A stretch of DNA of 64,000 nt. Origin: Streptomyces sp. NBC_01255. GTDB lineage: Bacteria > Actinomycetota > Actinomycetes > Streptomycetales > Streptomycetaceae. The position numbers and the translations under genes were made by a program. Below the pieces are notes generated by a model. The model was not told the DNA's origin. It made no database searches and saw only the letters and a program-made list of their open reading frames with translations. Shown here one piece after another: positions 23,987 to 61,474 of this stretch; position 1 is the first letter of the stretch, and each line of letters opens with the position of its first letter. The stretch lies in the NCBI RefSeq assembly GCF_036226445.1, contig NZ_CP108474.1, forward strand, positions 1 through 64,000, read 5' to 3'.

Positions 23987-24022
23987 GGACACACTTCCTC
24001 CGCTGGCGTGGCTGCGACGTGA

Positions 24023-24047
24023 CTGCTCAGATCCCTGTGCGACCTGG
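24023..24047. repeat. 25-bp element, copy 1
   Basis: A block beginning CTGCTCAGATCC and ending GACCTGG is identical, base for base over 25 bp, to 58388-58412. Here it lies 37 bp upstream of the N-hydroxylase start; the other copy lies 75 bp upstream of the NRPS start, in the same orientation. It may be an operator or core promoter for a shared regulator. Confidence 0.7.
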
Positions 24048-24112
24048 GAGTGACTCATGCGTTGCTCTGTCGGCAGATGGAGATCTCCGCCGGCGGCTGG
24101 TGCGCTCGTACC

Positions 24113-26279: not shown

Positions 26280-27449
26280 ATGACCGAATCCACGATCAAC
26301 CAGCTGGGCCCGCTTCCCGGCATCCTGCGTCCTGGTCCCGAGGATGTCGTGCGTGTGGTCGCCGGCACGGGCCACCCGTTCTGGCTCGTGCGCGGCTACA
26401 CGCTGGGACGGTCGGTCCTTGCGGACAAGAGGTTCAGCCGGGCCGCCGCGCTCCAGCCGGGCGCCCCGACGTTCAATGACGCCCAGCCGGCGGCGGATTC
26501 CATGATGAGCATGGACGGCAATCGGCACGCCCGGCTGCGGCGCCTGGTCAGCGGCGCGTTCTCCACCGGTCGGATGGCCAGGATGAGCGCCTTCGTGACG
26601 GATCTGACCGACCGCCGGCTGGACGCGATCGCCGAGATCGGCAACGGTGCGGACCTGATCGAGACCCTTGCCCGGCCTCTGCCGCTGTCCGTGCTCACCA
26701 CCATGCTCGGCATTCCCGAGGAGGACACGCCCCGCTTCCGCGGCTGGGTGGACGTGCTCTTCGACCTGGAGGTCACCAGCCCTCGCGAGAAGGCCCGGCG
26801 CCGTATCGAACTCATCGAGTACATCACGGAGTTGGTGGACCACAAGCGCCGCGATCCACGTGATGACCTGCTCAGTGACCTGACCATCGCGCAGGACCAG
26901 GGCGAGCTGTCCACGAACGAACTGCTCACCCTGGGGCTCACTCTGCTGATGGCGGGCTACGAGACCACCACCGGCCAGATCGGCCTCTCGCTGCTGGCGC
27001 TGCTGACCGACCGCAGCGCCTACGAAGAGCTCCTCGCACACCCGGAACACGTCGGGAACGCGACGGAGGAGCTGATCCGGCTGACCCCTGCCACGCCGCT
27101 GACCTTTGTTCGCATCGCCACCGAACCGGTGCGGCTCGGCGACGTCACCGTACAGAAGGGCGAGGGCGTCGTGGTGGCCCTGCTCCACGGCAACCGCGAC
27201 GCCGAGGTGTTCGCCGAGCCGGCATCCATGAACCTCGAATCCGGCCACGGTTCCCCGCCTCTGACCTTCGGGCACGGGGTGCACCGCTGCCTGGGCGCAC
27301 CACTGGCGAGACTCCAGCTGCGCATCGTCCTCGAACGGCTCCCGCGGCGCTTTCCGGCGCTGCGGCTCGCTGACGTTCCGGAACCGGTTGTCTGGAAGGA
27401 CGGCCTGGGCATACGCGGCCTCTCACGGCTGCTGGTCGACTCCGAATGA
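26280..27449 (+). CDS. Cytochrome P450 (first)
   Basis: A 389-residue bacterial class I P450 with I-helix AGYETT, K-helix ExxR (TEELIRLTP) and haem loop [10 protein letters not shown] with the axial Cys. All key residues are present. It likely hydroxylates or epoxidises the product or a building block; the substrate cannot be told. ATG 26280 lies 10 bp after the aminotransferase stop; an open frame extends upstream into that gene but is not used. It reads directly into the first PKS gene. Confidence 0.85.
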
Positions 27450-27457
27450 GGGAAGAT

Positions 27458-30400
27458 ATGTCAGTCGCGGACACCCGCGGGGTCCCCGGACCGGACCCGA
27501 TGAGCGACAAGCGGCGCGAACCGATCGCGATCGTCGGGATGGCGTGCCGCTTTCCCGGAGGCGTCACGTCTCCTGACGGCCTGTGGCAGCTGGTCGCCGA
27601 CGGTACCGACGCCATCGGCCCGTTCCCGCGCGACCGCGGCTGGGATCTCGACCATCTCTTCCACCCCGACCCCGATCACCCCGGTACCTCCAGCACACGC
27701 GAGGGCGGATTCCTTTACGACGCCGCCGAGTTCGACCCCTCTCTCTTCGGAATCAGCCCCCGCGAAGCCGTCAGGATGGATCCTCAGCAGCGTCTGGTTC
27801 TCGAAACCTGCTGGGAGGCCATCGAGCACGCCGGCATCGACCCCACCGTGCTGCGCGACACGCGGACCGGCACCTACTGCGGCCTCATGTACGCCGAGTA
27901 CGGGACGCACAAGAAGGAAGCGTTCGCGATCACCGGCAGGTTGCCGAGCGTGCTGTCCGGCCGCGTCGCCCACGCGCTGGGCCTCGTGGGTCCTGCCATG
28001 ACCGTGGACACGGCCTGTTCCTCCTCGCTGGTGGCCATCCATCTGGCCGCCCAGGCGCTGCGCAACGGTGAATGCGACCTGGCGCTGTCCGGCGGCGCGA
28101 CGGTCATGGTCAATGCCGCGCCTTTCGTGGAGTTCAGTCGTCAGCACGGTCTGGCCCCCGACGGCCGCTGCAAAGCCTTCGCCGCCACCGCCGACGGCAC
28201 CGCCTGGTCCGAAGGCGTCGGCATGCTCCTCCTCGAACGCCTCACCGACGCCCAACGCCACAACCACCCCGTCCTCGCCGTCATCCGAGGCTCAGCCCTC
28301 AACCACGACGGCGCCGGCAGCGGCCTCACCGCCCCCAACGGCCCCTCCCAACAAGCCGTCATCCGCGCCGCACTCCACGACGCCCACCTCACCCCCGACG
28401 CCATCGACGCCATCGAAGCCCACGGCACCGGCACCGCCCTCGGCGACCCCATCGAGGCACACGCCCTCCTCGCCACCTACGGCACCCACCGCAACCCCCA
28501 ACACCCCCTCCACCTCGGAACCGTAAAATCCAACATCGGCCACACCCAGGCAGCAGCCGGAGTCGCCGGCATCATCAAAATGACCATGGCCATCCACCAC
28601 GGCCAACTCCCCAAAACCCTCCACACCGACCAGCCATCACCCCGCATCGACTGGTCCCAAGGACACCTCGCACTCCTCACCCACGCACAACCCTGGCCCG
28701 ACCGCGCCCGCCCCCGCCGAGCCGCCATCTCCTCCTTCGGCCTCAGCGGCACCAACGCCCACCTCATCCTCGAACAACCACCCCAACCCACCACCACCGA
28801 AGACAAGGGCACCCCCACCGACCAGGACGGCTTCTTTCCCTGGCTGCTGTCCGGTCAGACCGAACAGGCGCTGCGTTCCCGAGCCGCACAACTGCACAAC
28901 CACCTCACCGCCCACCAGGACCTGGCCGTCGCCGACATCGGCCACTCCTTGGCCACCACCCGCACCACCACACACACCCATCGCGCCGCGATCCTCGCCA
29001 CCGGGCGCGCCGAGGCCCTGCGCAGCCTCCAAGCCCTGGCCAGGGGGGAAGCAACACCGCAGGTCATGACCCGTACGAGCACCGCGGCAGCCGGCCCGAG
29101 CGCGTATCTCTTCCCCGGCCAGGGCAGCCAGTACCCGGGTGCCGGCCGCGACCTTTATGGCCGCTTTCCCGCCTTCGCCCACGCCTTCGACGAGGCCTGT
29201 GTCCGTCTCGACCCTCACCTCGAGCACGCCCTCAAGGACGTCCTGTTCGCCGCGCCCGGCACCCCCGAGTCCGCGCTGCTCGGCCAGACCGCCTACACCC
29301 AGGCCGCTCTGTTCGCCCTCGAAGTCGCGTCTTTCCGGCTCCTGGAGCACCACGGCGCCGCCCCTGACCTGCTGCTCGGCCATTCCATCGGCGAGATTGC
29401 GGCCGCCCATGTGGCGGGTGTGCTCGATCTGGCGGACGCCTGCACTCTCGTCGCCCACCGGGGCCGGCTGATGCAGGGCGCCCCGGCGGGCGGCCGTATG
29501 GTGGCCGTCGAAGCGACCGAGGAGGAGATCCGCAAGGCTCTCGCCCCCTACTCCGGCCGGCTGGATCTCGCCGCCGTCAACGGGCCGAGGGACGTGGTCG
29601 TCACGGGCGATGCCGAGGCCGCGGCGGAGCTCTCGCAGGAGTGGCGCTCCCGGGGCCGCAGAGCCACGGAGCTGAAGGTCAGCCATGCCTTCCACTCCCC
29701 CCACATGGACGGTCTGCTGGAGGAGTTCAGGGACGTCGCCGCCCGGTTGGCCTACTCCGAACCCCGCATACCGGTCGTCTCCAATCTCACCGGTCGTCTC
29801 GCCACCGGGGCGATGCTGACGGACCCGGACTACTGGGTGCGCCAGCTGCGCGGCACCGTCCGTTTCCACGACGGCGTGCGCTTCCTCGAATCCCGAGGTG
29901 TCACCGAGTACGTCGAGATGGGGCACGGGGTGCTGAGCGTCCTGGCGCGCCGCTGCCAGGACCCGGACTCCCCGGGCGTGGTGACCTCCCTGGTGCGCCG
30001 CGGTCATGACCCTGTCGGCACCGTCACCACCGCGCTCGCCCGGCTCGCCCTGAACGGCGCCCGCCTGGATCCGGGAGAGTCCTTCCCCGGGGGCCGCCGG
30101 ATCCCGCTGCCCACCTATCCCTTCCAGCGTCAGCACTACTGGCTGAACGCACCGGCCGCGCGCGAAGCCGCCGTCCGGTCCCACCCGGTACTCGACGAGG
30201 GACTGGAACCGGCCGACGGAAGCGGGCTGGTGTTCACGGGTCGTCTCGACGCCGCGGACATGCCGTGGCTGGCCGACCACAGCGTCGCCGGGACCCCGGT
30301 GCTGCCCGCCGCGGGCATCGCGGAGCTCGCGCTGAGTGCCGCCCACCGGGCCGGTGCGGAGCAGGTGGCCGAGCTCACCCTGGAACAGGTCCTGCCGGTC

Positions 30401-32857
30401 GCCCAGCCCACCGACATCCAGCTGATCGTCGGCGCTCTTGACGAGGACGGCATGCGTTCGCTCGCGGTCTACTCCCGTCCGGCGGACACCCGCGGTGCCG
30501 CGTGGACCCGGCACGCCACCGGAACGCTGTCGGCCGCGGGACCCGCAGAGGTGGCCGGACTCGCGTCCTGGCCGCCGCGCGGGGCCTCACCGGTACCGCT
30601 CGACGACCTGTACTCCCGGCTTGCGGAGCGCGGTTACACCTACGGCTACACCTTCCGGGGCTTGCGCGAGCTCTGGCGCGACGGCAGCGATCTCTACGCG
30701 GTGGTGGGGCCGCGTGCGAAGGCGAGCCGTGACGGCTTCCAGCTGCATCCCGCCGCCCTGGACGCGGCCCTGCACGCGCTGGCCGCCGCCGACGGGGGCG
30801 AGTCCCGGCTCCTCGTGCCCTTCGCATGGCGCGGCCTGACTCTCCACGGGCCCGGCAACGGCCCGCTCCGTGTCCATCTGCGGCGTGGTGCGGACGACTC
30901 CTGCTCCCTGCTCGTCGCCGACGAAACGGGTGCCCCGGTACTCAGTGCGGACAAGCTCGTCCTGCGCGAGCTCAGGCCACCCGCCCCTTCGTCGGCGGAC
31001 GGCTCCGCGCTGCTCGCTCTGGACTGGACCGATCTCGCTCCCGGCACACCGCTTCTGAGCGGCACCTGGGCCGCGGTGGGCGCGGGCGCCGAGGCGATGT
31101 CCGGCCTCGTACGGTCGGACGGAGCAGCGGCACGCGTCCACACCGGCCTCGACGGCCTGCTCCGCTGCGTCGACGACGGCGCCGCGGTCCCCGAGGTCGT
31201 CCTCGCGTTCGTCACGGCTTCCCCGCCCGGCGGGCCCGAGACCACCGGGGCCACCGGGGCCACCGGGGCCACCGGGGCCGCTGCCCGAGAGGTCCTCGGT
31301 CTTCTCCAGCAGTGGCTCTCCGACAGCCGGTCGGCCGCCGGCAGGCTCGCCCTGATCACCCGGGATGCGGTGTCCGTGCCCGGCGACACCCGTTCGGACC
31401 CGGCGCACGCCGCGGTGTGGGGTCTGGTCCGCGCCGCGCAGTCGGAGCACCCCGGGCGATTCACCCTGATCGACAGCGACGGCGCCCCGCAGTCCGTCCG
31501 CGGCCTTCTCCAGGCCGCCGCCTCGCCAGAGCCCCAGCTCGCCGTCCGGGGCGGCCGGCTCCTCTCGCCCCGCTTGCTCCCTCACCGGCCGTCCCGCTCC
31601 GGCCGCGCTCCGTTCGACAGGCACAGCCGTGTCCTGGTCACCGGCGGGCTGGGCGCCTTGGGACGACTCGTCGCCCGTCATCTGGTGGACCGGTACGGAG
31701 TCCGGCAGCTGGTGCTCGTCGGGCGGCGCGGCCTGCGCACTCCCGGCGCGGCAGAGTTCGCCTCCGACCTCGAGGCCGCCGGCGTCCGGGTGACGGTCGC
31801 GGCAGGTGATGCCGGGGACCGTGCCGCCCTGGCCGGCATCCTGGACGGCCTCGACCAGCCGCCGACCGCGGTGGTGCACGCGGCCGGTGTCCTCGACGAC
31901 ACCGTCGTGCAGCGGCTGACCCCCGAGCGTCTGGATGCCGTCCTGCGGCCGAAGGCGGACGCGGCCGTCCATCTTCACGAACTGACCCGGCATCTGGACC
32001 TGTCCGCCTTCATCCTGTTCTCTTCCTCCTCCGGCACGCTCGGTCTGCCGGGCCAGGGCAACTACGCGGCGGCCAACGCCTATCTCGACGCACTGGCTCT
32101 GAAGCGCCGTGCCGAAGGGCTGACGGCCACGTCCCTCGCCTGGGGGCTGTGGGCCGCCGGAGACGGCCTCGGCGGCGGGCTGGGCACGACGGAGCTGCGG
32201 CGCCTGGCCCGCCGCGGAGCTGCGGCGCTGTCGGTCGAGGACGGTCTTGCCCTCTTCGACACCGCTGTCGCGGACACCGCCCCCGTCCTGCTGCCCGCCC
32301 GCCTCGACACGCGGGAACTGACGGCGGATTCGGCCCCGCCGCTCCTGCGCGCGCTCGTTCCCGCCGCCGCGAAGTCTGGCCGCCCGGTGCCCGCGCCGTC
32401 GGCCGCGGGCACTGCCGCCGCGTTGCGCCGACGGCTGGCGGACGCGCCCCGTACGGCGCGGCAGCACCTCGTCCTCGAGGCCGTACGTGCCGAGGTGGCC
32501 GCCGTTCTCGAGCTCTCCGCCCCGGATCGGGTGCCGGCCGCCGCGCGCTTCCAGGACCTGGGCGTCGACTCCCTGACCGCGCTGGAGCTGCAGCAGCGGA
32601 TCGCCTCGGCGACGGGTGTTCGGCTGGCTTCGACAGCCGTCTTCGACCACCGCAGCCCCGCCGCCCTCGCGGATCACCTGGTTGCGGAGCTCGCCGCCGA
32701 GAACGGCGAGGCGCACGTCCCGGCGGAGCCCGGCCCTGAACCGCCGTCCGAGGACACCTCGCTGGAGACGATGAGCGCCGAGGAGCTGGTCCGCCTGGCT
32801 TTGGGGACGGACCGCAGTGAACGCACCCCGACAGAGATCGACGGAGAGTCCCGATGA
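27458..32857 (+). CDS. Type I PKS module: KS-AT-DH-KR-ACP
   Basis: A single module of about 1799 residues. KS (27516-28780) has DTACSSS, EAHGTGT and KSNIGH. AT (29100-30020) has GQGSQ, GHSIG and HAFH, predicting malonyl-CoA. DH (30175-31000) has [10 protein letters not shown] and DAALH, so is probably active. KR (31620-32300) has TGGLGALG, an LDD motif (B-type) and YAAANAY. ACP (32490-32710) has LGVDSL. There is no ER, so it should make a double bond. The N-terminus has no coiled-coil docking helix and no loading domain is fused; the C-terminus ([11 protein letters not shown]) looks like a docking tail for the next PKS. ATG 27458 follows GAGGGAAG; ATG 27446, coupled to the P450 stop, is the alternative. 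Confidence 0.9.
28127..28796 (+). repeat. 670-bp KS tract identical to second PKS gene, copy 1
   Basis: Bases 28127-28796 match 33580-34249 with no difference that I could find (offset 5453). The tract covers the second half of the KS domain and ends abruptly at both sides, where the two genes diverge quickly. Codon choice inside (many CAC, CCC, AAC, and AAA codons) differs from the rest of either gene, suggesting one origin followed by gene conversion. Confidence 0.9.
31244..31279 (+). repeat. Four tandem 9-bp repeats in PKS linker
   Basis: The unit ACCGGGGCC is repeated four times without change, encoding a Thr-Gly-Ala run in the linker between DH and KR. Such a tract can vary in copy number by slippage without breaking the frame. 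Confidence 0.9.
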
Positions 32858-35800
32858 CGGCATCGCACGACGAACTGGTCGACGCACTACGGGCGGCCTT
32901 GCAGACCAATCAGCAGCTTCGTGCCGCGGCCGCGAAGGCGGAGCACGATTCCGGCCCGATCGCCATCGTCGGGATGGCCTGCCGCTACCCCGGCGGGGTC
33001 GAGTCCCCGCAGGACCTGTGGCGGCTGGTGACGGACGAGCGCGACGTGATCGGGCCGTTCCCCGAGGACCGCGGCTGGGACCTGTCCTCGCTGTACGACC
33101 CGGACGCGCAGCGGCCGGGGACGTCGTATGTCAGGGAGGGCGGATTCCTCGACGACGCCACGGGCTTCGATGCCGAGTTCTTCCAGATCTCGCCGCGCGA
33201 GGCGCATGCGATGGACCCGCAGCATCGACTGCTGCTGGAGACCTCGTGGGAAGCGTTCGAGAACGCGGGAATCGTCCCGGCGGCACTGAACGGCAGCCGC
33301 ACGGGCGTCTTCATCGGCACCATGTACGACGACTACGGTTACCGGGTCCTGCCGTCGCCGGCCGAGTACGAGGGGTATATGGCCCTCGGCAGCGCGAGTG
33401 GCTTCGCCTCCGGGCGTATCGCCCACAGCTTCGGGTTCGAAGGTCCTGCCATGACGGTGGACACGGCCTGTTCCTCCTCGCTGGTGGCCATCCATCTGGC
33501 CGCCCAGGCGCTGCGTAACGGCGAGTGCTCCCTGGCCCTGGCGGGAGCCGCCACGACCATGGCGACACCGGTGTCGTTTGTGGAGTTCAGTCGTCAGCAC
33601 GGTCTGGCCCCCGACGGCCGCTGCAAAGCCTTCGCCGCCACCGCCGACGGCACCGCCTGGTCCGAAGGCGTCGGCATGCTCCTCCTCGAACGCCTCACCG
33701 ACGCCCAACGCCACAACCACCCCGTCCTCGCCGTCATCCGAGGCTCAGCCCTCAACCACGACGGCGCCGGCAGCGGCCTCACCGCCCCCAACGGCCCCTC
33801 CCAACAAGCCGTCATCCGCGCCGCACTCCACGACGCCCACCTCACCCCCGACGCCATCGACGCCATCGAAGCCCACGGCACCGGCACCGCCCTCGGCGAC
33901 CCCATCGAGGCACACGCCCTCCTCGCCACCTACGGCACCCACCGCAACCCCCAACACCCCCTCCACCTCGGAACCGTAAAATCCAACATCGGCCACACCC
34001 AGGCAGCAGCCGGAGTCGCCGGCATCATCAAAATGACCATGGCCATCCACCACGGCCAACTCCCCAAAACCCTCCACACCGACCAGCCATCACCCCGCAT
34101 CGACTGGTCCCAAGGACACCTCGCACTCCTCACCCACGCACAACCCTGGCCCGACCGCGCCCGCCCCCGCCGAGCCGCCATCTCCTCCTTCGGCCTCAGC
34201 GGCACCAACGCCCACCTCATCCTCGAACAACCACCCCAACCCACCACCAACACCGAAGACACGAGCACGGGCCCGGCACCGCTGCCCGTCGTCCCCGTCG
34301 TCCTGTCCGGGCACAATCCGGCCGCGTTGCAGGCCCAGGCCCGCCGGGTCCTCGACTCGCTGACCGGGGCGTCGGCTGCCCCCACGGACCTTCTCGACCT
34401 CGGCCTGTCCCTTGCCACCACCCGCAGCCACCTCGCGCACCGCGCGGTCCTGCTTCCCCGCGGGGAGGGCGGCCTGCTCGACGGCCTGCGCGCCCTGGCG
34501 GCGGACGCGGATGCGGATGCGGCGGTGCGCGGCCGGGCCACCGAGGGGCGCACCGCTCTCCTGTTCTCCGGGCACGGCGTCCAGCGGCCCGGTATGGGCC
34601 GGGAGCTGTACCGGACCTTCCCGGCCTTCGCCTCCGCGTTCGACGCCGTCTGCCGCGAACTCGACGCCCATCTGGACCAGCCCCTGCGCACGGTGCTCTT
34701 CGACTCCGAGACCGCGCTGCTCGACCGCTCGGAGTACTCCCCGCTCGCACTCTTCGCCTACCAAGTCGCGCTGTTCCGCCTGCTCGAGTCCTGCGGAGTC
34801 GCGCCCGCGGCGGTCATCGGTCACTCCGTCGGCGCGGTCGCCGCCGTTCATGCCGCCGGTGTGCTCTCGCTCGCCGACGCGGCCGAACTGGCCGTGGCTC
34901 ACAGCCGGTCGGTGAAGGGGCTTCCGGGAAGCGGAACCGCGGCCGTGAAGAACCTGGACTTCCGTGAGCCGGAGCTCACGGTGGTTTCGGGTCTCACCGG
35001 GCAGGCGATGAGGGAGAGCGAGTTCGCCGACCCCGACCACTGGGCCCGCCAGGCGGTCGAGTCGTTCCGCTTCGCGGACGGCGTGCACTCCCTGAGCGGC
35101 CTGGGCTGCAACCGGCTGGTGGAGGTCGGCCCGTCGGGCGAACTCACCGACATGGTCGCCGACTGCTTCGCCGGCCAGGCCGCGCCGACGGCGATCGCGG
35201 CGCAGCGCGACCAGGAGCCGGAGGCCACCACGCTGGTGACCGCGCTCGCCCGGCTGCACGCGGTCGGCGCCGACGTCGACTGGGCCGCCGTGTTCGCGGA
35301 TCGCGGAGCTCATCGGATCCCGCTGCCGACCTATGCCTTCCAGCGGCGCCGCTACTGGATCGACGCGCCGCAACGCACAGCTGCCCGTTCGGCCGGGATC
35401 ACCGGCCTCGACCATCCGGTCCTGGGGGCCGCTGCGGAGGTACCGGCGCCGGACGGAGTCATGTTCACCGGACGGCTCTCGCACGCCACGCTTCCCTGGT
35501 TGGCCGACTACCGGGTCGCCGGCGGGACGCTGCTGCCCGGCACCGCCCTGCTCGACGCAGTGGTGAGCGCCGCCCGCGTGGCGGGCGGCGACACGGTCCA
35601 GGAGCTCGTCCACGAGGAGCCCCTGGCCGTGCCGGACAGTGCGGAGCTCGATCTGCGGATCTTCATCGCGGCGGCCGACGCCGACGGCAGGAGCACCGTC
35701 ACCGTGCACGCCCGCCGGGCGGACACCGAGGAGCCGGCCTGGACCCGGTGTGCCCACGGCACCATCGCCCGGCTGGGCTGGGAGCCCGGCGCCGAGCCGC

Positions 35801-37908
35801 GGCGCGGCCTCCCCGTGGACGCCGCGCCGCTCGACATGCCGCCTCACGAGCTCTACCGCGCCCTTGCGGAGCGGGAGTTGGCGTACGGACCGGCGTTCCG
35901 CGGTGTCGGCGCGATGTGGAGCTCGGGCCCGGGGATCGTCGCCGATGTGGCCCTCCCCGGCGGACTCCTGCCCGGCACGCACGCCCTGCACCCCGTGCTC
36001 CTCGACGCCGCCCTGCACCCGCTCTCCGCCGAGGGTGCCGCGGGCCCCGGCATGCTCCCGCACATCTGGCGGGACGTGCGGGTCCGGGCCACCGCCACCG
36101 GCGCGGCCCGGGTGCGGGTCCATCTGACACCCGCGGGCCCCGACGCGGTCTCGGCCGATCTCACCGACCCCGACGGCAGGCTGCTGGCCTCGATCGGTTC
36201 TCTCGTCCTGCGGCCGGTCCCGGCCGCAGGCGCCGGTCCTTCCGGCGCGCAGGAGGCCGACGGTCTCCTGGTGCCGCGCTGGACACCGGTTTCCGAGGCT
36301 GCCGACGCCGTGGCGGACGAGCCGTGGACAGACCTCACCGAGGTGCTCGCCGCAGCTGGAGCGGTCCCGCGAACGGTCGTGCTGCCGTGCCGGACCGGCA
36401 CGGCCGAGACCCCGGCGGCCGTCCGGGAAACGTTGCTGGAGGTGCTGAACGCAGCCCAGGGCTTCCTGGGTGACGAGCGGTTGGAGGATTCCCGGCTGGT
36501 GGTGGTCACCCGCGGCGCCGTTGCCGTGGAGGACGAGCAGGACCCCGCCATCCGGCCCGCCCACCGCGCCGTGTGGGGGCTTATCCGGTCGGCGCAGGCC
36601 GAGCATCCGGGCCGGTTCGTCCTGCTCGACGAGGACGGCACCGCCGCCTCGCGCGAGGCGTTCGCCGCCGCGCTGGCCACCGGCGAGAGCCAGCTCGCGC
36701 TGCGTGAGGGGACCGTGTACCGGCCGGTCCTCGGCAGCGGCGCCGATGCTCCGGTCCCCGGGGGTTCCTGGGACCCTTCACGAGCGGTGCTGATCACCGG
36801 TGGTCTCGGCTGGCTCGGCCGGATCACGGCCCGGCACCTGGTGGAGCAGCACGGTGTGCGCCAGCTGGTCCTGATGGGGCGCGGCGCCCCCGGCGCCGAC
36901 GCGGAGCGCGTCATCGCGGATCTGCGGGATCTCGGCGCGCGGGTCCGCACGGTGGCCTGTGACGCCGCCGATCGCGAGTCTCTGGCCGGTGTTCTCGACG
37001 GGCTTGCCCGGGCCGGTGTCCGCATCGGCGGTGTCGTCCATGGCGCGGGTTTCCTCGAAGGCGGTCTGCTGACCGACTTGACGGCCGGCGACCTCGAACG
37101 GTCGCTGCGTCCCAAGGTCGACGCGGCGTTGCATCTGCACGAGCTGACCGCCGGCCTGGACCTGTCCGCGTTCGTCGTCTACTCCTCGGTCGCCAGCACG
37201 CTCAACTCGGCCGGGCAGAGCGCCTATGCCGCCGCGAACGCGTTCCTGGAAGGCCTGATGGAGCAGCGGCACGCCGCCGGCGAGCCCGGCGTGGCCATCG
37301 TGTGGGGCCAGTGGGACGTGTCGGGTGGCATGGGCAGCACCCTCACGAACGCGCAGATCGACCGTATGGCCCGGGCCGGCGTCCTGTTGATACCCATCGA
37401 ACAGGGTCTGCGCTTCCTCGACGCGGCGGTTCACGGGGATCGGCCGGTGGCCGTGGCGGGACGCTGGGATCGCGACGCGTTGGCCGCGCAGCACCGCGGC
37501 GGCACCCTCCCGCGGATCCTGGAGTCTCTCCTGCCCGCCGATGCCGGGAAGCCGCAGGGAGGGGGGTATCAGCCGTCGGCCGCGCTGCCGCTCGACCACG
37601 GGGACACCGCTGCCGCGGGAGGGGGCGACACGCTGCTGGAGTGGCTTCTGGCCGAGGTCGCCGGCGTGCTCGGCCACGCCTCCGCCGACGCGATCGACCC
37701 GGACACCGCCTTCGACCACGTCGGCATGGACTCGCTGGGAGCGGTGGAGCTGCGCAACCGGCTGATGGCCTCCATGGGGCTGCGTCTTCCGGCCACCTTC
37801 GTCTTCGACTGGCCGACCCCGCGGCTGCTGGCCGACGTGCTCGGTCAGGAGCCGCCGTCCGACGGACGGACCGCCACCGAGAACGGAAACGGAACCCCGA
37901 CGCCATGA
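32854..37908 (+). CDS. Type I PKS module with shortened AT and mutated DH: KS-AT*-DH*-KR-ACP
   Basis: A 1684-residue module with an N-terminal docking coil ([19 protein letters not shown]). KS (32955-34235) has DTACSSS. AT (34550-35180) keeps GHSVG but reads from GSGTAAV directly to [18 protein letters not shown]; about 78 residues, including the HAFH catalytic His motif, are missing. GQGxQ is changed to GHGVQ. DH (35410-36220) has [10 protein letters not shown] where the catalytic His should be, though DAALH remains. KR (36780-37470) has TGGLGWLG and SAYAAANA, but neither LDD nor the A-type Trp. ACP (37635-37840) has VGMDSL. There is no TE; the chain should pass to the NRPS. It is coupled by ATGA at both ends. 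Confidence 0.9.
33580..34249 (+). repeat. 670-bp KS tract, copy 2
   Basis: The partner of 28127-28796. As a direct repeat about 5.4 kb apart it could also recombine and delete one whole PKS module. Confidence 0.9.
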
Positions 37909-41960: not shown

Positions 41961-44900
41961 TCAATCACGGAGGTAGCGGTTGACGATGGTGCAGATCTCG
42001 GCCGCGGGCTTCGGCTCGGTGAGGCCGAAGTGCGTGGCGTCGATGTCGAAGGTGTGCAGCTCGCCGTCGACGTACGGCTCCCAGGGGGCGGGCCGTACCT
42101 CGGGGCTGTGCGTCGCGCTGAAGAACAGCACGGTGCCGCGGTAGGTGGGCTGGGGGAACTCCACGACCATCCGGGAGTGCTCGACGATGACCGTGGCGCC
42201 GTTCTCGACGATGTTCCGGCGGTCGTCGTCGTCGGCGTTGCCCGGCAGGTAGTCGTCCAGGAAGTCGCGCGCCTCCGCCCGGGTGAGGTGGGCCTCCGCC
42301 AGCTGTGTGAACCCGCTGCTGGGAACGGCGTCGAGGAGCACCACCAGGGACACCTCGTAGCCGCGCTGCTGGAGTTCGGCACCGACGGCGTGGGCCAGGG
42401 AGCCGCCCAGCGAATGCCCGGCCAGCTGGAACGGACCGTGCGGCTGCACGGCGAGGACCTGTTCGGTGTAGTCGGTGACCATGGCGGCGAAGCTGGCCGG
42501 CAGCGGCGCGCCGTCGAAGCCGCGCGCCTGGATGCCGTACACGGGGCGGTCCTCCAGCTGGGTGGCCAGCCCCAGGTAGGACCAGCACAGGCCGAATCCC
42601 GGGTGGAAGAGCCACAAGGGCGTTTTGGTCCCGCCGGTCCGCAGCGGCAGCAGGGTGTCGAAGGGGCCGCCGTCGCCGGGATCCCGGAGGCCGCCCGTCA
42701 GGTGTTCCACCAGTTTGGCGACGGTCGGCGCCTGGAACACCGTGCGGATCGGGACTTCCGCGCTCAGCACCGTGCGGATCCGGCTGATGAGCCGGGTGGC
42801 GAGGAGCGAGTGGCCGCCGAGAGCGAAGAAGTCGTCGTCGATGCCGACCCGCTCCATGCCGAGGACCTGCGCGAACACGCTTGCCAGCAGTTCTTCCTGG
42901 GCGTTGCGGGGGGCCCGGTAGGCGGTGTGGCTGAGGAACTCGGGCGCGGGCAGCTGCCTGCGGTCGACCTTCCCGGTCACGGCCAGTGGCAGACTCTCCA
43001 TGACCAGGATGGCCGAGGGCACCATGTGCTCCGGCAGTCGTTGTCCGGTGAAGGACCGCAGGGTGTCCGGGTCGGGCCGCTCGCTCTCGGCCGGTGTGAC
43101 GTAGGCGACGAGGTGCCTGCCGATGCCCGGCTGGTCCCGGGTGATCACGACGGCCTGCGCGACCTGCGGATGGTCGGCGAGTACCGCCTCCACCTCGCCG
43201 AGTTCGATCCGGAAGCCCCGGACCTTGACCTGGTTGTCGACGCGGCCCCGGAACAGGAGGCGGCCCTCCGGTGTCCAGGCGGCCAGGTCGCCGGTGCGGT
43301 ACATCCGCTCGCCCGGCCCGCCGAAGGGGCAGGCCACGAAGCGCTCCGCGGTGAGGCCGTACCGGTCCAGATAGCCGCGGGCCAGTCGTTCGCCGGCGAC
43401 GTACAGGTCTCCGACGACCCCGACCGGCGCCGGTCGCAGCGCCGCGTCCAGCACGTACAGGCGGGTGTTGTCCATCGGGCGCCCGATCGGTACGGCCTCG
43501 CCGAGGTCGTCCGTGCCGGTGATGACGTGCATGGTGGTGGCCGCGGTGGTCTCGGTCGGGCCGTAGCCGTTCACGATGGTCAGGTCGGCGCATGCGCGGA
43601 GCACCCGTTCCAGGGCGGCCGGGGTCACCACGTCACCGACCGTCCACACCTCACGGGCGCCGCGGAACGCCTCGGGTGCCTCATCGGCGAAGGCCATGAA
43701 CTGGCCCGCCGGCATGATGAGTCCGGTGACTCCTTGTTCGGCGATCATCCGTGTGAGTCCCGCCGGATCCAGTCGGCCGGGCGGAAGGATGACGACTGCG
43801 CCGCCGCGGAGCAGGCCGGCCCACAGCTCGTAGGTGAAGGTGTCGAAGGCCTGGGTGTGGTGCATGAGAACGCGCTCCAGGCGGCTCTCGTCGTAGCCGC
43901 GGTCCGCCGACAGGACTGCCAGCGACCGGTGGGAGATGCCGACGGCCTTGGGCCGGCCCGTGGAGCCGGAGGTGTACACCACGTAGCAGAGCTGGTCCGG
44001 GTGCGCGGCGGAGTCTGCGGCGAGCGGGTCGGCCGGGGCCGCCGCGATCTCCCGGGCGGTCCGGGGCGCGTCGATGACCAGGAGCGGGCAGTCGCTTGCG
44101 GGCAGCGTGGCCGAGGTCTGTGTGTCGGTCACCACGAGAGCGGGGTCGGCGTCGCTCAGCATGAAGGTGATCCGCTCGGCGGGGTAGGCAGGGTCGATGG
44201 GCAGGTAGATGCCACCCGCCTTCGCGATGGCCAGTACGGCGACGATGTACTGCGGTGAGCGCGGGAGGGCGAGTGCGACGGGCGATTCCTGGCCCACGCC
44301 GCTGGCCGCCAGGACCCGTGCGAGCCGGTTGGCCCGTTCGTCGAGCTCGCGGTAGGTGAGAGTGGTGTCACCGCACAGCACGGCGTGGGCGTCGGGGCGG
44401 TGGGCGGCGCGCTGTTCGAACAGTGCGGCCACGCCGGTCCCGGGGACCTCGGCGGTGGTGTCGTTGAAGCCGGTCAGCACGAGTTCGCGCTCGGCCGGTG
44501 CCAGGGGGTCGATTCCGCTCAGCGGGGTGTCGGGGTCCGCCGCGATGTCGCCGAGGATCCGTGTGAGGCGGTGCGCGAGGCGCTGTACGGTCTCGGAGTC
44601 GAAGGCGTGGTCGCGGTGGCCCAGCATCAGCTGGAGGTCCGGGTCGGCGGTGGCGAACAGGGCGAGCGGGTAGTGCACCGCCGCTTCCCAGTCCATTCCG
44701 GTGATGGCGATGCCGGCCGCGCTCAGCGTCTCGTCGAGGTCGTCCCCGCCGGCGGGGTAGGACTCGTAGACCACCACCGAGTCGAAGAGCACGGGGAGGT
44801 CGACGGCCCGGTGGATCTCGGCGAGGCCGAGGTGGTGGTGGTCCATCAGCGCGGCCTGGCGCTCCTGAAGGTCGAGGAGCAGTTCGGCCGCGCTCTGTCC

Positions 44901-47900
44901 GGCCGTCGTGCGTACCCGGACCGGGAGGGTGTTGATGAACAGGCCCACCATCTCGTCCATGCCTGCCACCTGCGGCGGGCGCCCGGAGACCGTGGCGCCG
45001 AACACGACGTCCTGGCGGCCCGTGTGGCCGGCGAGGAGCAGTGCCCAGGCGCCCTGCACCAGATTGTTGAGGGTGATGCCGAGTTCGGCGGCGCGCTGCG
45101 ACAGGCGGCGTGCCAGGTCGCGGTCCAGGTCGACCGGTGTCCTGCGGTGGCCGCCTCCCGCCTGCTGCTGACTGCGGGGGGCGACCAGTGTCGGCTCGTC
45201 CAGCCCGTCCAGTTCGGTCCGCCACGCCTGTGCCGCACTTTCGTGGTCCTGTTGCGACAGCCAGTCGAGGAAGTCGCGGTACGGGCGTACCCGGTTCAGT
45301 CGTCCGGCGTCCCCGAAGGTGGCGTACAGGTGCAGCAGGCTGTGCAGCACGAGGGGCGAGGACCAGCCGTCGTACACGATGTGGTGGACGGTCATCACCA
45401 GTTCGTGGTGCTCGGGTGCCCGCTGGACGAGGGTCAGGCGCAGCAGGGGCGGGGTGGCCGGGTCGAAGGGGGTGGCCCGGTCCCGGTCCCGCAGGTCCCG
45501 CAGTTTCTCCTCCTGTTCCCGTTCGGGCAGGCCGCTCCAGTCCATGGTCTGCCAGGGGAGCTCGACACGGTCGAGGAGGACCTGTACGGGTTCGCCGGCG
45601 GCTGTGGCCACGAATGCGGTGCGCAGGCTGTCGTAGCGGTCGAGCAGGGCCTGGCCGGCCGTCCTCATCCGTTCCGGGTCCACGTGTCCGGTCAGGTGGA
45701 AGACCAGTTGCACCTGGTAGGCGTCGAATTCGGCGCCGTCCAGCCGGCTCTGGAACAGCAGGCCGGACTGCAGCGAGGTCAGCGGCCATACGTCGACCAC
45801 GTCCGGGTAGCGCTCCTCCCAGACTTCCAGGTCCCGCTGTCGTACGCGGACCAGGGGCACGTCCGACGGTGTCAGGCCGCCCGCCCCGGGAGCGGTGGCG
45901 TGTCGGGCCAGGCCTTCCAGGGCGGTGCGCCACAGGTCCGCGAGTTCCTGTACTTCTTCCCGGGTGAGCAGCCCGGTGGGGAAGGCGAAGTCGGCGGTCA
46001 GCTGCGGGCCGTGCGCGGTCTCGGCGGAGAAGGCGGTGATGTCCACGGCGGTCAGGGCGGGTGCGTTCGGTTCGGGTACGAGGTCGTCCAGGTCGCCGGA
46101 CATCGTCCAGCCCGTGCCGTTGTCCTCCTGCGCCGAGGCGACCGGGCCCAGCCGGCCGAGGTAGTTGAAGGCGACCTGTCCGTCGCCGTATGCCGTGAGG
46201 ATCTCGGCGGTCTTGGGGTTGAGGTGGCGCAGCAGGCCGTAGCCGATGCCCTTGTCCGGGATCGCGTGGAGCTGTTCCTTGATGGTCTTCATCGCGTAGC
46301 CGGCTGTGCGGCCACCCGCGACGGCGTCCTGCAGATCGATGCCGCTGACGTCGAGGCGGACGGGGTAGATGCTGGTGAACCAGCCGATGGTGCGGGTGAG
46401 GTCGGCGCCGGGTACCGCGGCTTCCTCGCGGCCGTGTCCTTCGAGGCGGATCAGCGTCGAGGGTTCGTCGATGTCCCGTGCCCTGTACCACCCGGCGAGG
46501 GCCAGTGCGAGTGCGGTGAGCAGGCCGTCGTCGACGCCGCTGTGGAAGGCGGCGGGCAGTGTGGTCAGGAGCGCTTCGGTGGTCGGGTGGTCCAGCGTGA
46601 TCCGCACCGTGTCCATGGTCGCGCGCACGTCGATGGCGGGGTCGAGGGCCCGGGCGCCGAGCTGTGGCTCGGGCCGGTCCAGCAGGTCCCGCCAGTGGTC
46701 GAGTTCGGCGACCCGGTCGGGTGCCCCGGCTGCCTGCAGCAGGCCGTACGACCAGCTGCGCATCGTGGTGGGCACCGTGGCCAGCCGCGGGGAGCGGCCC
46801 TGTCGCACGGCGTCCCAGGCCTGTGCGAGGTCGGACAGCAGGATGTGCCAGGAGACCCCGTCGGTCACCAGGTGGTGCAGGACGATGATCAGTTGGCCGG
46901 CGGTGTCCGGGCCTGCGTCGCACCAGATGAAGCGGGCCATCCGGCCTGCTTCCGCGTCCAGTTCACGGGCGGCGGCGACGACGTCGGCCTTGGTCTCCTG
47001 CCGCCAGGCGGGGTTGTCCCAGTCGCCGGTGCAGGGCCTGCGGCGGATGAGCGACGCCACGTCGAGGGTGCCGGGTGCGGCCGCGTCCAGGCCCTGCTCC
47101 CCGGCGTGGACGCGGAGGCGGGAGCGCAGCATGTCGTGATGGTCGACGACCGCGGCGAGGGTCGCGGTCAATCCGGTCTCGTCGATGCCGGTCGGCAGCT
47201 CCACCACCGTCGACATCGTGAATCCGTCGTGGTTTCCGACGTGCTCGGCGATCTGTCGCATCACGGGAAGCAGTGGCATCCAGCCGAGTCCGCTCCCGGC
47301 GGGTTCCCGGCGGTCCGTGCCGGGCTGCCCGCCGGCCGTGGCGGCCGCGGCGAGGGCGGCCACGGTCCGGTGCTTGAACATGAGCCGTGGCGTGATCGCC
47401 ACGCCCTTCTCGCGGGCTCGGGAGACGACCTGGATGGAGCGGATGCTGTCGCCGCCGGCCACGAAGAAGTCGTCGTCGATGCCGACCCGGTCCCGCCCCA
47501 GGATGTCGGCGAAGATCGCGGCGAGTGTCGTCTCCGCCTCGGTCTGGGGAGCCCGGTAGCTGGTGGCCGCCGTGGTCGGCGGCGCGGGCAGGGCGGACTT
47601 GTCGAGCTTGCCGTTGGCCGTCAACGGCAGAGTGTCGAGCAGCAGGAACACCGAAGGCACCATGAATTCCGGCAGCCTCTCGGACAGGAAGGCGCGCAGG
47701 TCGTCGGCGTCCGGGCCGCGGCTTGTCGACGGGGCGGGGGTTCCGGCCGGTGCGGGCGCGGGCACCGCGTAGCCCACCAGGCGCTGCCGGCCGTCCTTGC
47801 CCCGGTGGGCGGTCACCACGGCCTGTCCGATGCCCGGGTGCTGTTGCATGACGGCGGTGATCTCGCCGGGTTCGATGCGCAGCCCGTTGATCTTGACCTG

Positions 47901-50900
47901 GTCGTCGCTGCGGCCGAGATAGTCGAGTTGCCCGTCCGCGCCCTGGCGCACGATGTCCCCGGTCCGGTACATGCGGGTGCCGGCGGGTCCGTACGGGTCG
48001 GTGACGAAGCGCTCGGCGGTGAGCCCGGGGCGGTTCAGGTAGCCCCGGGCCAGGCTGGGCCCCGCGATGTACAGCTCGCCGGCGACGCCTGGTTCGACGG
48101 GGGCGAGCCGCTCGTCGAGCACCCGCAGCCGGTTTCCGTCCACGGCGGTGCCGATGGGTGTGCGGCCGGTGCCGAGGGGGGCGCTGACCGTGCCGCACAC
48201 GGTGGTCTCGGCGGGACCGTAGGCGTTGACGAAGCGGCGGCCCGGCGTCCAGGCGGCGGCCAGCGCCGGTGGGCACGCCTCGCCTCCGACGGTGACGGTG
48301 CGCAGTGCGGTCAGGGTGCGGGACGCGTCGGCCGGGAGCGCGGCGAGCACGCTGGGCGGCAGCATGACGTGGGTGATGTCGAGTTCGGTCAGGTTGCGGG
48401 CCAGGTCTTCGCCGACGAGGCGCTGTTCACGCGGGACCACCAGGGTGGCGCCGGTCGTGAGGGTCTGGACGTACTCCCAGATGGCGGCGTCGAAGCTGGG
48501 CGCCGCGACCTGGAGGACTCGGGAGTCCGGGCTCAGCGCGAGGCGGTCCTGTGTGGTGCGGCTGAGGGCCGCGATGCCGGCGTGGGTGACGACGACGCCC
48601 TTGGGCCGTCCGGTCGAGCCGGAGGTGAAGATGAGGTAGGCGGGATGCGCGGGGGTCAGGGCGACGTCCGGGTCCGTGGCCGGGCCGTCCTGCCAGGCCT
48701 GCGTCACTTCGGGGGCGTCGACGGCCACGACATCGGTGCCCGGGCCTGCCGGCAGCCCCGTCGCGATGCCGGCCGTGGCCAGAAGGACGGCGGGGGCGGC
48801 GTCGTCGAGCATGAACCGGATGCGATCGGTGGGATAGTCGGGATCGATCGGCAGGTATGCCGCGCCCGCCTTGAAGATGCCCAGGACGACGGCGACCTGG
48901 TCGGCGCCGCGTGGCATGGCGACGCCGACCGACTGCTCGGGGCCGATGCCCCGGGCGATCAGCCAGTGCGCGACTCGGTTGGCCCGCTGGTTCAGTTCCC
49001 GGTACGACCACACCCGGCCGCCGGATTCCACGGCCGGTGCCTGCGGGGCTCGCAGGAGCTGTTGCCGGAACAGGTCCGGGAAGGTGGCCGTTGCGACCTC
49101 GCGTCCGGTCCGCTGCTCGGCCGCGAGCAGTGTGCCGCGTTCTTCGGCGGTGGGTTCGCCTGCCCCGCCGATGTGCTGTGCGGGGTCCTGGACGGCGGCG
49201 GCGAGGAGCCGTTCCCAGTGGGCGATCACCGTCTCGATCGTCGAGGCGTCGAAGAGCTCCGTGGAGTACTCGACGGCGATGTGTATGCCGTTCGGCGCGG
49301 TGCGGTCGCGGAACGTCTCGGTCAGGCTCAGTGTCACGTCGTAGCGGGAGGTGCCTGTGCCCACGCCCTCGCTCGCGACGCGTACACCGGGCAGTTCGAA
49401 GTCCGCGTCCTCGGTGTTCTGCAGGATCAGGGCGACCTGGAAGAGCGGGTTGAGCGATGCCGAGCGTTCCGGGTTGAGCTTCTCCACCAGGGCTTCGAAG
49501 GGAATGTCCTGGTGGGTGTACGCGGCCAGGCTCGTCCGGCGTGTCTGGTTGAGCAGTTCGACGAAGGTCGGGTCGCCCGAGGTGTCGATGCGCATGACCT
49601 GCACGTTGACGAAGAGGCCGATCAAGTCGTTGAGGTTCTGGTCGATCCGGCCCGCGATGCCGCTGCCGAGCGCGATGTCGGTGCCTGCGCCGAGCCGGGT
49701 GAACAGGGCGGCCATGGTCGCCTGGAGCACCATGAAGGGGGTGGTGCCGGTGGCGCGGGCGAGCGAGACGATTCCCTCGTGGAGCGTCGTGTCCAGGGTG
49801 AACTCGAGCAGATCGCCGCTGCGGTCGAGCTCCGCGGGGCGCGGTCGGTCCGTCGGGAAGGTGACGGTCTCGGGCAGCCCCGCCAGCTGCCGGGACCAGT
49901 AGAGGCACTGCCGGCTGAACAGGCTGTCCGGGTCGTCGTCGCCTCCCAGGAGCTCCCGCTGCCACAGGGCGTAGTGCGCGTACTGCAGCGGCAGTGGTGT
50001 CCAGCGGGGTGCCTGGCCTCGGGTGCGGGCCGTGTAGGCGGTGGCCAGGTCCTTGGCGAGGGGTGTCGCGGACCATCCGTCGGCCGCGATGTGGTGGATC
50101 ACGAGGACCAGGGCGAACTCGTCCGGGTCGGTGCGCAGCAGCACGGCCTTGAGCGGAATCTCGGTGGCGATGTCGAAGGGGTGGCGGGCGGCCGCGGCGA
50201 TGGCGCCGGCCAGGTTGTCCGCGTCCGCGACCGGGCGCACGGGGAGGGCGATGCGGGCCTCCTCCGGCCCCAGGATGTGCTGGTACGGCCGCCCGTCGAC
50301 CTCGCGGTAGACGGTGCGCAGGATCTCGTGCCTGGTCACGAGGTCGTTGACGGTCTCTTCCAGGGCCCGCACGTTCAGGTCCCCGCTGAGGCGGAGGACG
50401 ATGGGCATGTTGTAGGTCGCCGCGCGGCCCTCGAACTTGTGCAGGAACCACAGCCGTTGCTGGGAGAAGGACAGCGGGAGCCGCTCGGGGAGCTTCTCGG
50501 GGGGAGCCAGGGGTGCGCGGGCCGCCCCGGCCCGGTCCAGATGCGGGACGAGTTCGGCCACGGTCGGAGCGGCGAAGAGGGTACGCAGCTCCACTTCGGT
50601 GCGCAGCGCGGACCGGATGCGGTTGACGAGCTTGATGGCCATGATCGAGTGGCCGCCGAGAGCGAAGAAGTCGTCGTCGACGCCGACCCGGTCGACATGC
50701 AGGACTTCGGCGAACAGCTCGCACAGCAGCTCTTCCTGAGGAGTGCGCGGGTCACCGCCCGCGGCCGCCGCGGCGAAGTGCGGTGCGGGCAGCGCTTCCC
50801 GGTCCAGCTTGCCGTTGACGGACAGCGGAACCGAGTCGAGGGCGACGACGGCGGCGGGCACCAGGTGTGCGGGCAGCCGCTCGCGCAGATAGCCGCGCAG

Positions 50901-53900
50901 GGTGCCGGCCAGGTCCGTGCCGTCAGCTTGCGGGGCGGCGGGCACGACGTAGGCGACGAGCTGCTGGTCGCCCTCCTCGGCTGTGCTGCGGGCGATGACG
51001 ACGGCCTGCGTGACATCGGGGTGGGTGGCCAACGCCCGCTCGATCTCGGCGGGTTCGACGCGGACACCGCGGATCTTCACCTGGTTGTCGTCGCGGCCGA
51101 CGTACTCGAGTTGTCCGTCGGCCGTCCAGCGGGCCAGGTCTCCGGTGCGGTACATCCGCGCACCCGCGGGGCCGTGGAGGTCGGCGACGAAGCGCTCGGC
51201 GGTCAGGGCGGCTCGGCCGGCGTAGCCGCGTGCGATGTTCCCGGCGACGTACAGCTCGCCGGTCACGCCGGGCGGGACGGGCGCGAGGGCGGGCCCGAGG
51301 ACGTAGGTGCGGAGGTTGCCGATCGGCGTCCCGATGGGGACGCTGCCGGTGTCTTGCCGGGTCTGCTGCGCCGGGACGCTGAACGTCGTGGCGTAGAACG
51401 ACTCGGTCTGCCCGTAGGCGTTGACGATGCGTACTTCGGGCTGTTCCTGCCGGATGCGGTTGACCAGCCCGGTCGGCAGTTTCTCGCCTGCGAAGACGAG
51501 GGTCGCCCGGTCCGGAAGGGCCGGGATCCGGCCGCCGAGCGCGGCGAAGACCGACGGGACGGTGCTGATCACGTTCGCCGTCATCGTCTCGCGTTCGGCG
51601 AGCACGAGGGCGTCTCCGGCGACCTCGACACGGCCGCCGTGAACCAGCGTGGTGACGGTCTCGAAGACGGACACGTCGAAGTTGATCGAGGCGCCCGCGA
51701 GCATGCGGGTGTCCGCGTCGATCCCCACCCGTTCGGCGAGCCGCGTGACGCCGTTGACGACGTTGGCGTGGCTGACCACGACTCCCTTGGGGACGCCCGT
51801 GGAGCCGGAGGTGAACATCACGTAGGCGGCGTGCTGCGGTTGCCGTGCCTTCGCCCGGCCCGTGACCGGGGCGGCGGTGGCGAGTTCCACGTCGTCGAGG
51901 AGCAGCGTCGGGATGTCGGTGCCCGGCAGCCCGTCGGCGGTGCCGGACTGGGTGAGCAGCAGGTGGGGCCGGGCGACGCTCAGCATGTGGTCCACCCGGG
52001 AACCGGGGTTCTCCGGGTCGATGGGCAGATACGCGCCGCCGGCCTTCCAGATGCCGAGCATGGCGGTGACGAGGTCGGCCGAGCGAGGCATCGCCAGGCC
52101 GACGACGGTTTCCGGTCCGACGCCGCGTGCGGCCAGTGCGGTCGCGAGACGATCGGCGCGGGTGTTCAGCTGCGCATAGGTCAGCGTGACGTCGCCGCAG
52201 GTCACCGCGGGCCGGTCCGGTGTCTTGGCGGCCTGTCGCTCGAACAGGTCGGGGATGGTCGCTTCGGGGGTCTCGGCGGCGGTTTGGTTGACGTCGAGGA
52301 GGATGCGGTCGCGCTCGGCGGGCTCCAGCAGGTCCACGCTGCTGAACGGCAGCTCCGGGTCCTCGGCCAGCCGGGCGAGGACGCTTCCCAGGCGCCGGGC
52401 GAACACAGCGGCCTGGTCCGGGGACACGAGGTGGTGCTGGTACTGGAGGGCGATGGTCAGATGCGGCTCGGCGGACGCCATCACCACCAGCGGGTAGTGG
52501 GTACTGCTGAGAGGGCTCAGCCCGGTCACCCGGATTCCGGCAGCCGCATAGGCGTCGTCCAGGGCCGCGCTGTCGATGGGGTAGGACTCGTAGACGACCA
52601 GGGTGTCGAAGAGCGCGCGCACGCCGGTGAGCCGGTGCATCTCCGGGAGGCCGAAATGGTGGTGGTCCAGGAGTGCGCTCTGCCGCTCCTGGAGTCCGGT
52701 GAGGAGGGTGCGCAGGGAGTCGCCGGGGGCGCAGTCCATCCGGACCGCGAGGGTGTTGATGAACGTGCCGACCATCTCGGCCACGCCGTCGACCTGCGGC
52801 GGGCGACCCGAGACGGTGGCGCCGAAGGTGACGTCCCGGCGTCCGGTCAGGCCGGACAGGAACATGCCCCACGCGCCTTGGACCAGCGTGTTGAGGGTCA
52901 GGCCCAGCTCACTGGCGCGGCGGGCGAGCCGATCGGACTGCTCCGGGGTGAGTGGCACGTCCACCTGGCCGACTCCGACGGATTCGCCGTTGCCTGCGGG
53001 AACGTCGGGTACCAGCAGCGTGGGCTCGTCGACGCCCTCCAGCTCCCGTTCCCAGGCTCGGGCTGTCGCCGTGCGGTCCTGGTGGGAGAGCCAGGTCAGG
53101 AACTCGCGGTAGGCGGGCGCCCTGCCAAGGTCGGAGTCGTCGCCGTGCGAACGGTACAGACGCAGCAGGTCCAGCATCAGGAGGGGAACCGACCAGCCGT
53201 CGAAGAGGACGTGGTGGGCGGTGAGGACCAGGTCCCAGCGGTCGGCTGCCAGCTTGACGAGGGAGAACCTCACCAGTGGCGCGCGGGCCGGGTCGAAGTG
53301 GGTGCTGTGCTCCGCGGCGAGGAAGCGCCTGCGGTGCTCGGCCTGTTGGTGTTCGGGCAGGGAGGACAGGTCCAGCTCCTGCCAGGGCAGTTCGATTCCG
53401 TCCTGGACGATCTGGACCCGGTCGCCTGCGGTGTCGGTGACGAACGCGGTGCGCAGGTTGGGATAGCGGTCGAGCAGCGCCTGTCCGGCCGCCCGCATCC
53501 TGCGCGGTTCGACCTCACCGGTCAGGTGGAAGGCGAACTGCATCTGGTAGACGTCGACGGCCGTGCCGGCCAGTTCCGCGTGGAAGAGCAGCCCGTCCTG
53601 CATCGCGGTCACGGGCCATACGTCGGCCATGCCCGGGTACTGCTCCTGCCAGCGGTCCAGCTCGCCCTGGCCCGCTGTGACCAGGGGGACGTCGGAGGGT
53701 GTGAGGCCGCCCGCTTCCGTCTGTCCGGCATGCCGGGCCACGCCTGTCAGGGCGGTCCGCCACAGGTCGGCGAGCTCGCGGACATCGGCCTCGGCCAGCA
53801 GCCCGGCCGGGTAGTCCAGACTCGCCTCCAGTCGCGGGCCCTGCTCGGTGTCGACGACATGCGCGTTGACGGACAGGGAGGCGAGGGCGGCCATGTCCGC

Positions 53901-61237: not shown

Positions 61238-61474
61238 GAACTCCGCACCCACCTGGACACCGGAGACCCTCACCCGGCCACCTTGGGCCGATCTTGGCCC
61301 TCTCTTGGTGTCCCGGATCCGGGTGGCACACCCGAAGTCCCCTGCGCAGGCCCCGCCCGACTCCCGGTGCCCATCGCACTCCTCATCGGGTCAGCCCTTC
61401 CAAGACGCGCATTAGACCGGCTTTGGACGGTCCCCCGAAGATGCGGGAAACCGATCACGGGGGGCGCGGAGCGA

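Follow-up and report, generated by a model that had tools for sequence, protein, structure and literature searches.

In the first 64,000 nucleotides of contig NZ_CP108474.1 of Streptomyces sp. NBC_01255 (hereafter the window), two adjoining polyketide synthase (PKS) genes, PKS1 and PKS2, each encode one ketosynthase (KS), acyltransferase (AT), dehydratase (DH), ketoreductase (KR) and acyl carrier protein (ACP) domain, and the acyltransferase of PKS2 (AT2) lacks an internal stretch of about 78 residues. We favour, with a probability of roughly 0.6, an explanation in which AT2 has lost its activity and persists as a spacer and ACP2 is malonylated in trans, most likely by the acyltransferase of PKS1 (AT1), while KS2 would elongate, KR2 would reduce and DH2 would be lost. 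This explanation builds on the deletion itself, the residues lost, their conservation, the selection on the domains, the predicted fold and a natural fusion protein; feature coordinates are collected in Table 1.

Using an AT profile built in this analysis, AT2 was matched at profile positions 1-130 (residues 567-696) and again at 209-284 (residues 697-772), the intervening 78 positions being absent between directly adjoining residues; the ten-residue junction peptide is encoded at 34927-34956. The HAFH motif is lost, the GHSVG motif is kept and the reading frame is open across AT2. The Pfam family PF00698 covers AT2 at profile positions 3-141 of 319 only, and each of the 21 other PF00698 matches in the same genome (22 in total) spans at least 253 profile positions. 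AT1 retains the region deleted in AT2, including SHAFHSP. In another Streptomyces genome, G247 (taken as S. alboniger), AT2 is likewise covered at 3-141, and among its 21 other matches a single fragment was seen, below the cut-off. An AF2 model of the linker plus AT2, computed from an alignment (A3) of 83 rows comprising two DNA slices, the proteins P0006 and P0007 and 79 proteins drawn from 120 listed, is without about 80 residues of the AT fold, which leaves the predicted two-subdomain fold incomplete. A model of the larger KS-LD-AT2 block (residues 32-860, ten-row alignment A2) reached a pLDDT of 41.3 and was discarded. An earlier note on this DNA had described an in-frame internal deletion of about 78 residues that takes away the small subdomain and the HAFH histidine and spares GHSVG; both its site and its size were borne out, and the structure prediction proposed there as a check agrees. 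A sequencing or assembly error at the junction, which the note had named as the possible flaw, is refuted, since orthologues carry the same deletion. The window is the start of an 8.43-Mb contig in an assembly of two contigs.

The deletion lies at the same place in all six AT-keeping PKS2 orthologues found among the matches listed, namely those of the window, P0004 (NBC_00878), P0005, P0006 (NBC_01283), P0007 (S. alboniger) and S. orinoci (locus L009, 8330-13384), with a gap of 77 positions in P0007. These were drawn partly from a similarity listing that gave 120 of 6494 matches. Within 241 proteins with 367 AT hits, a non-random set chosen for its similarity to PKS2, a gap of 77-78 positions was confined to the five orthologues included. 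Across the genus such orthologues are rare (1/391, 1/392 and 0/394 genomes in overlapping samples, the one being G247), and among eight similar loci L009 (91%) is the orthologue, the other seven standing at 34-58% as judged by identity values only. Ten non-orthologue proteins, picked for single-module length or high identity from 120 of 5281 KR-ACP matches listed, were also aligned. Nine of them (62-68% identity across the length in common) carry a complete AT that has GQG, GHSVGA, the arginine and the catalytic histidine, the latter within HAFH in eight and RAFH in P0267; P0246 is without its KS, and the tenth is the fusion protein P0243 discussed below. AT2 thus derives from an intact AT, malonyl-type by motif, and one in-frame deletion in the ancestor of the cluster family may have removed the small subdomain together with the catalytic histidine.

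Elsewhere in the same set, an AT of P0038 (Saccharothrix syringae, residues 2177-2419) is without 41 profile positions of its small subdomain and keeps HAFH, and the AT of P0215 is without its C-terminal part. Of five further proteins flagged by a motif survey, P0009, P0035, P0098 and P0116 turned out on alignment to have an AT of full length that the pattern had missed; P0096 was flagged for a spacing of 132 only.

Outside the deletion, catalytic residues of AT2 have changed as well. As read from aligned orthologue rows, each split in two by the gap, the glutamine of GQG is histidine in the window, P0004, P0005 and S. orinoci and aspartate in P0007 (P0006 starts too late), and the malonate-binding arginine (AHRGR in AT1) is histidine in six of six. 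The nucleophilic serine is kept in five of the six and is glycine in P0007. The 234 other AT rows have glutamine in 229, arginine in 232, serine in 232 and histidine in 232, the remainder being gaps. A structural study describes the arginine as essential for acyl transfer and finds that PksD, an AT-like hydrolase, requires both the serine and the histidine (PMC11775670). Measured against an active malonyl AT, AT2 has the serine of GHSxG and is without the catalytic histidine, the arginine and the full two-subdomain fold; a PksD-like acyl hydrolase, with its Ser-His dyad and replaced arginine, is matched in the replaced arginine but not in the dyad, the histidine being gone too. AT2 looks catalytically dead, and its remnant would be kept for structural reasons, spacing KS2 from DH2.

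In the rest of module 2, the KS2 cysteine and both histidines are retained in the window, P0004, P0005, S. orinoci and G247 (the P0006 record is without a KS), so that the loss of KS cysteine or histidine that marks a non-elongating module (KS0) is not seen in KS2. The N-terminal truncation of P0006 and P0007 might suggest a loss of KS2, but locus L018 has KS2 in another frame in G247; with PKS1 of G247 also changing frame, these truncations are not evidence for KS loss. In that genome (L029, 9749-16537) frame changes lie within KS1 and both KS-AT linkers and reflect gene decay or assembly indel errors. The active-site histidine of DH2 is replaced by tyrosine in the window, P0004 and S. orinoci (three of six) and kept in P0005-P0007. 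Two outgroups, P0244 and P0246, have tyrosine at this position as well, which suggests that the histidine has been lost more than once. Between the window and S. orinoci, dN/dS was 0.67 (0.41-1.24) for DH2 versus 0.31 (0.16-0.56) for DH1, with overlapping intervals, and between the window and G247 it was 0.49 versus 0.46, indicating no DH2 relaxation in this pair. KR2 gave values of 0.18-0.33, and KR2 and ACP2 stayed at or below 0.33. The impression that the downstream domains look functional therefore stands for KR2 and ACP2, whose active residues are kept, and fails for DH2 in three of the six orthologues. Module 2 thus has the sequence make-up of a cis-AT module with an inactive AT, in which the AT is disabled and the KS, KR and ACP active sites are kept. 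It probably elongates and reduces with no dehydration in the window, elongation being favoured because the conservation of KR2 lacks a clear reason without it. With DH2 lost and KR2 working, the chain would probably leave ACP2 as a beta-hydroxyacyl unit.

If AT2 is dead, ACP2 would have to be charged by another AT, either AT1 or one from outside, which is the best-supported of the options raised in the earlier note. AT1 is intact and malonyl-type by motif (FPGQGSQ, GHSIG, AHRGRL, SHAFH), with these motifs intact in the window, S. orinoci and G247. Among the 22 PF00698 matches of the genome only AT1 and AT2 lie within the window, the next on the contig being at 873,875, and by these matches the cluster has no discrete AT of the trans-AT PKS kind. 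The strongest hint towards AT1 comes from P0243 of S. monashensis (1758 aa, three member sequences). Its residues 1-1140 follow PKS1 (73-95% in 60-residue windows), residues 1141-1260 follow PKS1 less closely (60-65%) and residues 1261-1758 follow PKS2 (66-95%). P0243 is thus KS1-AT1-DH1 joined to KR2-ACP2, the switch lying inside the KR structural subdomain, with AT1 and ACP2 in one module and KS2, AT2 and DH2 dropped. In a KR-ACP tree P0243 and the six deletion carriers share a fully supported branch (100/100). P0243 falls among the carriers, where its neighbour is P0005, a placement without strong support (82/80); 2% of 200 bootstrap trees contain a branch that sets the six carriers apart. 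This position suggests a deletion carrier as the probable origin of the fusion. As the loader of ACP2, AT1 would serve both ACPs, and P0243 fits either a line in which AT1 was already serving ACP2 or one in which module 2 was already idle.

Several other explanations have to be weighed. The main alternative loader of ACP2 would be a free-standing malonyl transacylase, either FabD from fatty acid synthesis or some other discrete AT encoded in the genome, and AT matches in short frames do occur outside the cluster at C1:6047190 (359-aa frame) and C1:6187168 (419-aa frame). The S. coelicolor malonyl transacylase restores an AT-null DEBS module 6 (PMC6164871), which makes FabD a real rival, and PepC, the sole PKS of the pepstatin cluster, whose AT is described as truncated, is proposed to install malonyl units (PMC12081711). 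However, the PepC authors class it as cis-AT, so its AT may be active, no discrete AT is present in the window among the PF00698 matches, and loading by FabD leaves the pairing of AT1 with ACP2 in the one natural fusion unexplained; we regard this alternative as unlikely, if still worth serious consideration. It is also rather improbable that, in line with the note's other option, module 2 does not elongate and KS2 merely hands the chain from ACP1 to ACP2, with no extender needed. The dead appearance of AT2, the DH2 histidine lost in half of the orthologues and the S. monashensis fusion, whose product would stay unchanged under such a pass-through, speak for it, but the KS2 catalytic triad is kept in the five sequences named above, and the low dN/dS and intact catalytic residues of KR2 are hard to explain without a beta-ketone. 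A bolder scenario, which we hold to be doubtful, takes the AT2 remnant as a docking surface that lets AT1 (or FabD) reach ACP2 and the module as a cis-AT/trans-AT intermediate; S. monashensis would then have cut the idle KS2-AT2-DH2 and joined AT1 to KR2-ACP2, giving one module that works twice.

Decay of the whole cluster, with PKS2 as a non-functional pseudogene, might be read from the damage to AT2 and DH2, from the frame changes in G247 and from the annotation of P0006 from within AT2 only. Yet the frames of the window and S. orinoci are open, KR2 and ACP2 are under constraint as described, neighbouring genes are 85-95% identical, and several breaks within 10 kb of one genome may be assembly indel errors, which together render decay very improbable. 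That AT2 still works with its serine alone, as the GHSVG kept in the window might suggest, is scarcely credible, with the histidine, arginine, glutamine and small subdomain gone and the serine itself lost in P0007; in PksD, H201N and S99A abolish activity (PMC11775670).

Returning to AT2 as a dead spacer and AT1 as the likely loader of ACP2, a number of observations weigh against this explanation. The serine is kept in five of six orthologues, and the dN/dS of AT2 (0.53 versus 0.33 for KR2, S. orinoci/G247) indicates that selection on AT2 is partly relaxed. In the KS-AT linker of PKS2 dN/dS reaches 0.82 (window/S. orinoci), yet it is 1.20 in PKS1, where the AT is intact. The docking domain PF08990 was undetected on PKS2 of the window, though annotated in P0004 and P0005. 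PKS1 is seen beside PKS2 only in the window, S. orinoci and G247, P0004-P0006 being known from the PKS2 protein alone, and P0243, itself known from the protein alone, equally fits a line where module 2 adds nothing.

The two KS domains share a tract that is identical over 670 bases in the window, over 680 in S. orinoci and to 99.6% over 679 in G247. This identity contrasts with the 69% likeness of the two KS in their N-terminal parts and with a difference of 3.7% in the tract when the window is compared with S. orinoci. The tract has a GC skew of -0.43 and an AT skew of 0.35; of 946 segments of 670 bases, each of the six with the most negative skew overlaps a copy of it. The pattern resembles GRINS-type gene conversion, as described in PMC9899208, acting separately in each lineage.

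As for the cluster context, the KtzI-like ornithine N-hydroxylase has KtzI as its best PDB match (E 1e-166), and the KtzT-like gene has a piperazate synthase as its own (E 1e-104); with these two genes adjoining, the peptide probably holds piperazate. The cluster further holds a class I/II aminotransferase, two P450s, an FMN-dependent 2-hydroxyacid oxidase, a glycosyltransferase of the activator-dependent family, an MbtH gene, sugar genes and a 5450-residue non-ribosomal peptide synthetase (NRPS), which is the likely receiver of the ACP2-bound chain. Judged from these genes, the cluster probably makes an acyl peptide that contains piperazate and is glycosylated. Among the titles and abstracts listed by searches of the open-access literature none names this cluster, and the published piperazate clusters among them were not compared with it. 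A second glycosyltransferase gene probably lies at 59915-61273 (-), as judged from the 5' part of the open reading frame 60224-62383, which in L009 and G247 finds a 60-64% match on the strand opposite their glycosyltransferase genes. Outside the cluster, near the contig start, 9424-11052 (-) encodes an nSTAND1 NTPase with a helix-turn-helix (Pfam E 1.4e-118).

Table 1. Features of the PKS1/PKS2 cluster, in window coordinates
Feature	Position	Strand	Basis or remark
KtzI-like ornithine N-hydroxylase	22652-24058	-	
KtzT-like piperazate synthase	24413-25081	+	
PKS1: KS1-AT1-DH1-KR1-ACP1	27446..32857	+	Pfam, translation
KS1 copy of 670-bp tract	28127..28796	+	identical to KS2 copy
PKS2: KS2-AT2(remnant)-DH2-KR2-ACP2	32854..37908	+	Pfam, translation
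KS2 Cys (DTACSSS), His (EAHGTGT), His (SNIGHTQ), all kept	33460..34002	+	translation
KS2 copy of 670-bp tract	33580..34249	+	identical to KS1 copy
AT2 remnant (residues 567-772), large subdomain only	34552..35169	+	profile hits, AF2 model
GHSVG nucleophile motif	34819..34833	+	kept in window; GHGIG in P0007, SHSVG in P0006
Deletion junction (residues about 695-697; small subdomain and HAFH gone)	34936..34944	+	profile hits, orthologue alignment
DH2 active-site motif DYRVAG, His to Tyr	35506..35523	+	translation, alignments
KR2 catalytic Ser/Tyr/Asn region, intact	37180..37239	+	translation, alignment
ACP2 phosphopantetheine site GMDSLG	37723..37740	+	Pfam
NRPS, four A domains, C-A-T-E-C-A-T-C-A-T-E-C-A-T-TE (read by eye)	41961..58313	-	translation, A-domain motifs

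Among described systems, module 12 of the irumamycin PKS resembles PKS2 as a cis-AT module whose inactive AT is proposed to be structural only, with the preceding module's AT supplying its carrier, although its authors consider stuttering of module 11 too (PMC11672594). AT12 is described as having GHG in place of GHS, so that the serine is lost, along with other degenerate motifs, and modules 11 and 12 lie on a single protein (PMC11672594). In PKS2, by contrast, the excision takes out an entire subdomain, the partner AT belongs to a separate protein and six orthologues share the loss. In the aureothin PKS one AT likewise loads successive modules, within an intact PKS protein (PMC9899208), whereas sharing in the window would run between two proteins. 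The pepstatin synthase PepC, a PKS whose AT is described as truncated, also belongs to a Streptomyces NRPS-PKS cluster that works, but it is the single PKS of that cluster and is classed as cis-AT (PMC12081711). Trans-AT modules with an AT docking region share with PKS2 the apparent want of a working AT and the proposed loading in trans (PMC9899208, PMC6164871); PKS2 differs in that no discrete AT was found in its cluster, its AT large subdomain is nearly complete and its AT relatives occur in PKSs with built-in ATs.

Taken together, AT sharing between modules is known (aureothin) or proposed (irumamycin), and the present case differs in that just one subdomain is excised, a family shares the excision, the two modules sit on two proteins and a fusion exists. 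How cis-AT assembly lines lose and share their ATs is an open question in PKS evolution and engineering, and here three states stand within one family: an intact AT in homologues, the precise removal of a subdomain in six orthologues, and a single fusion from which the idle domains are gone. The deletion gives a natural boundary for gutting an AT while the module stays, and AT1 and ACP2 form a ready pair to test AT sharing between two proteins.
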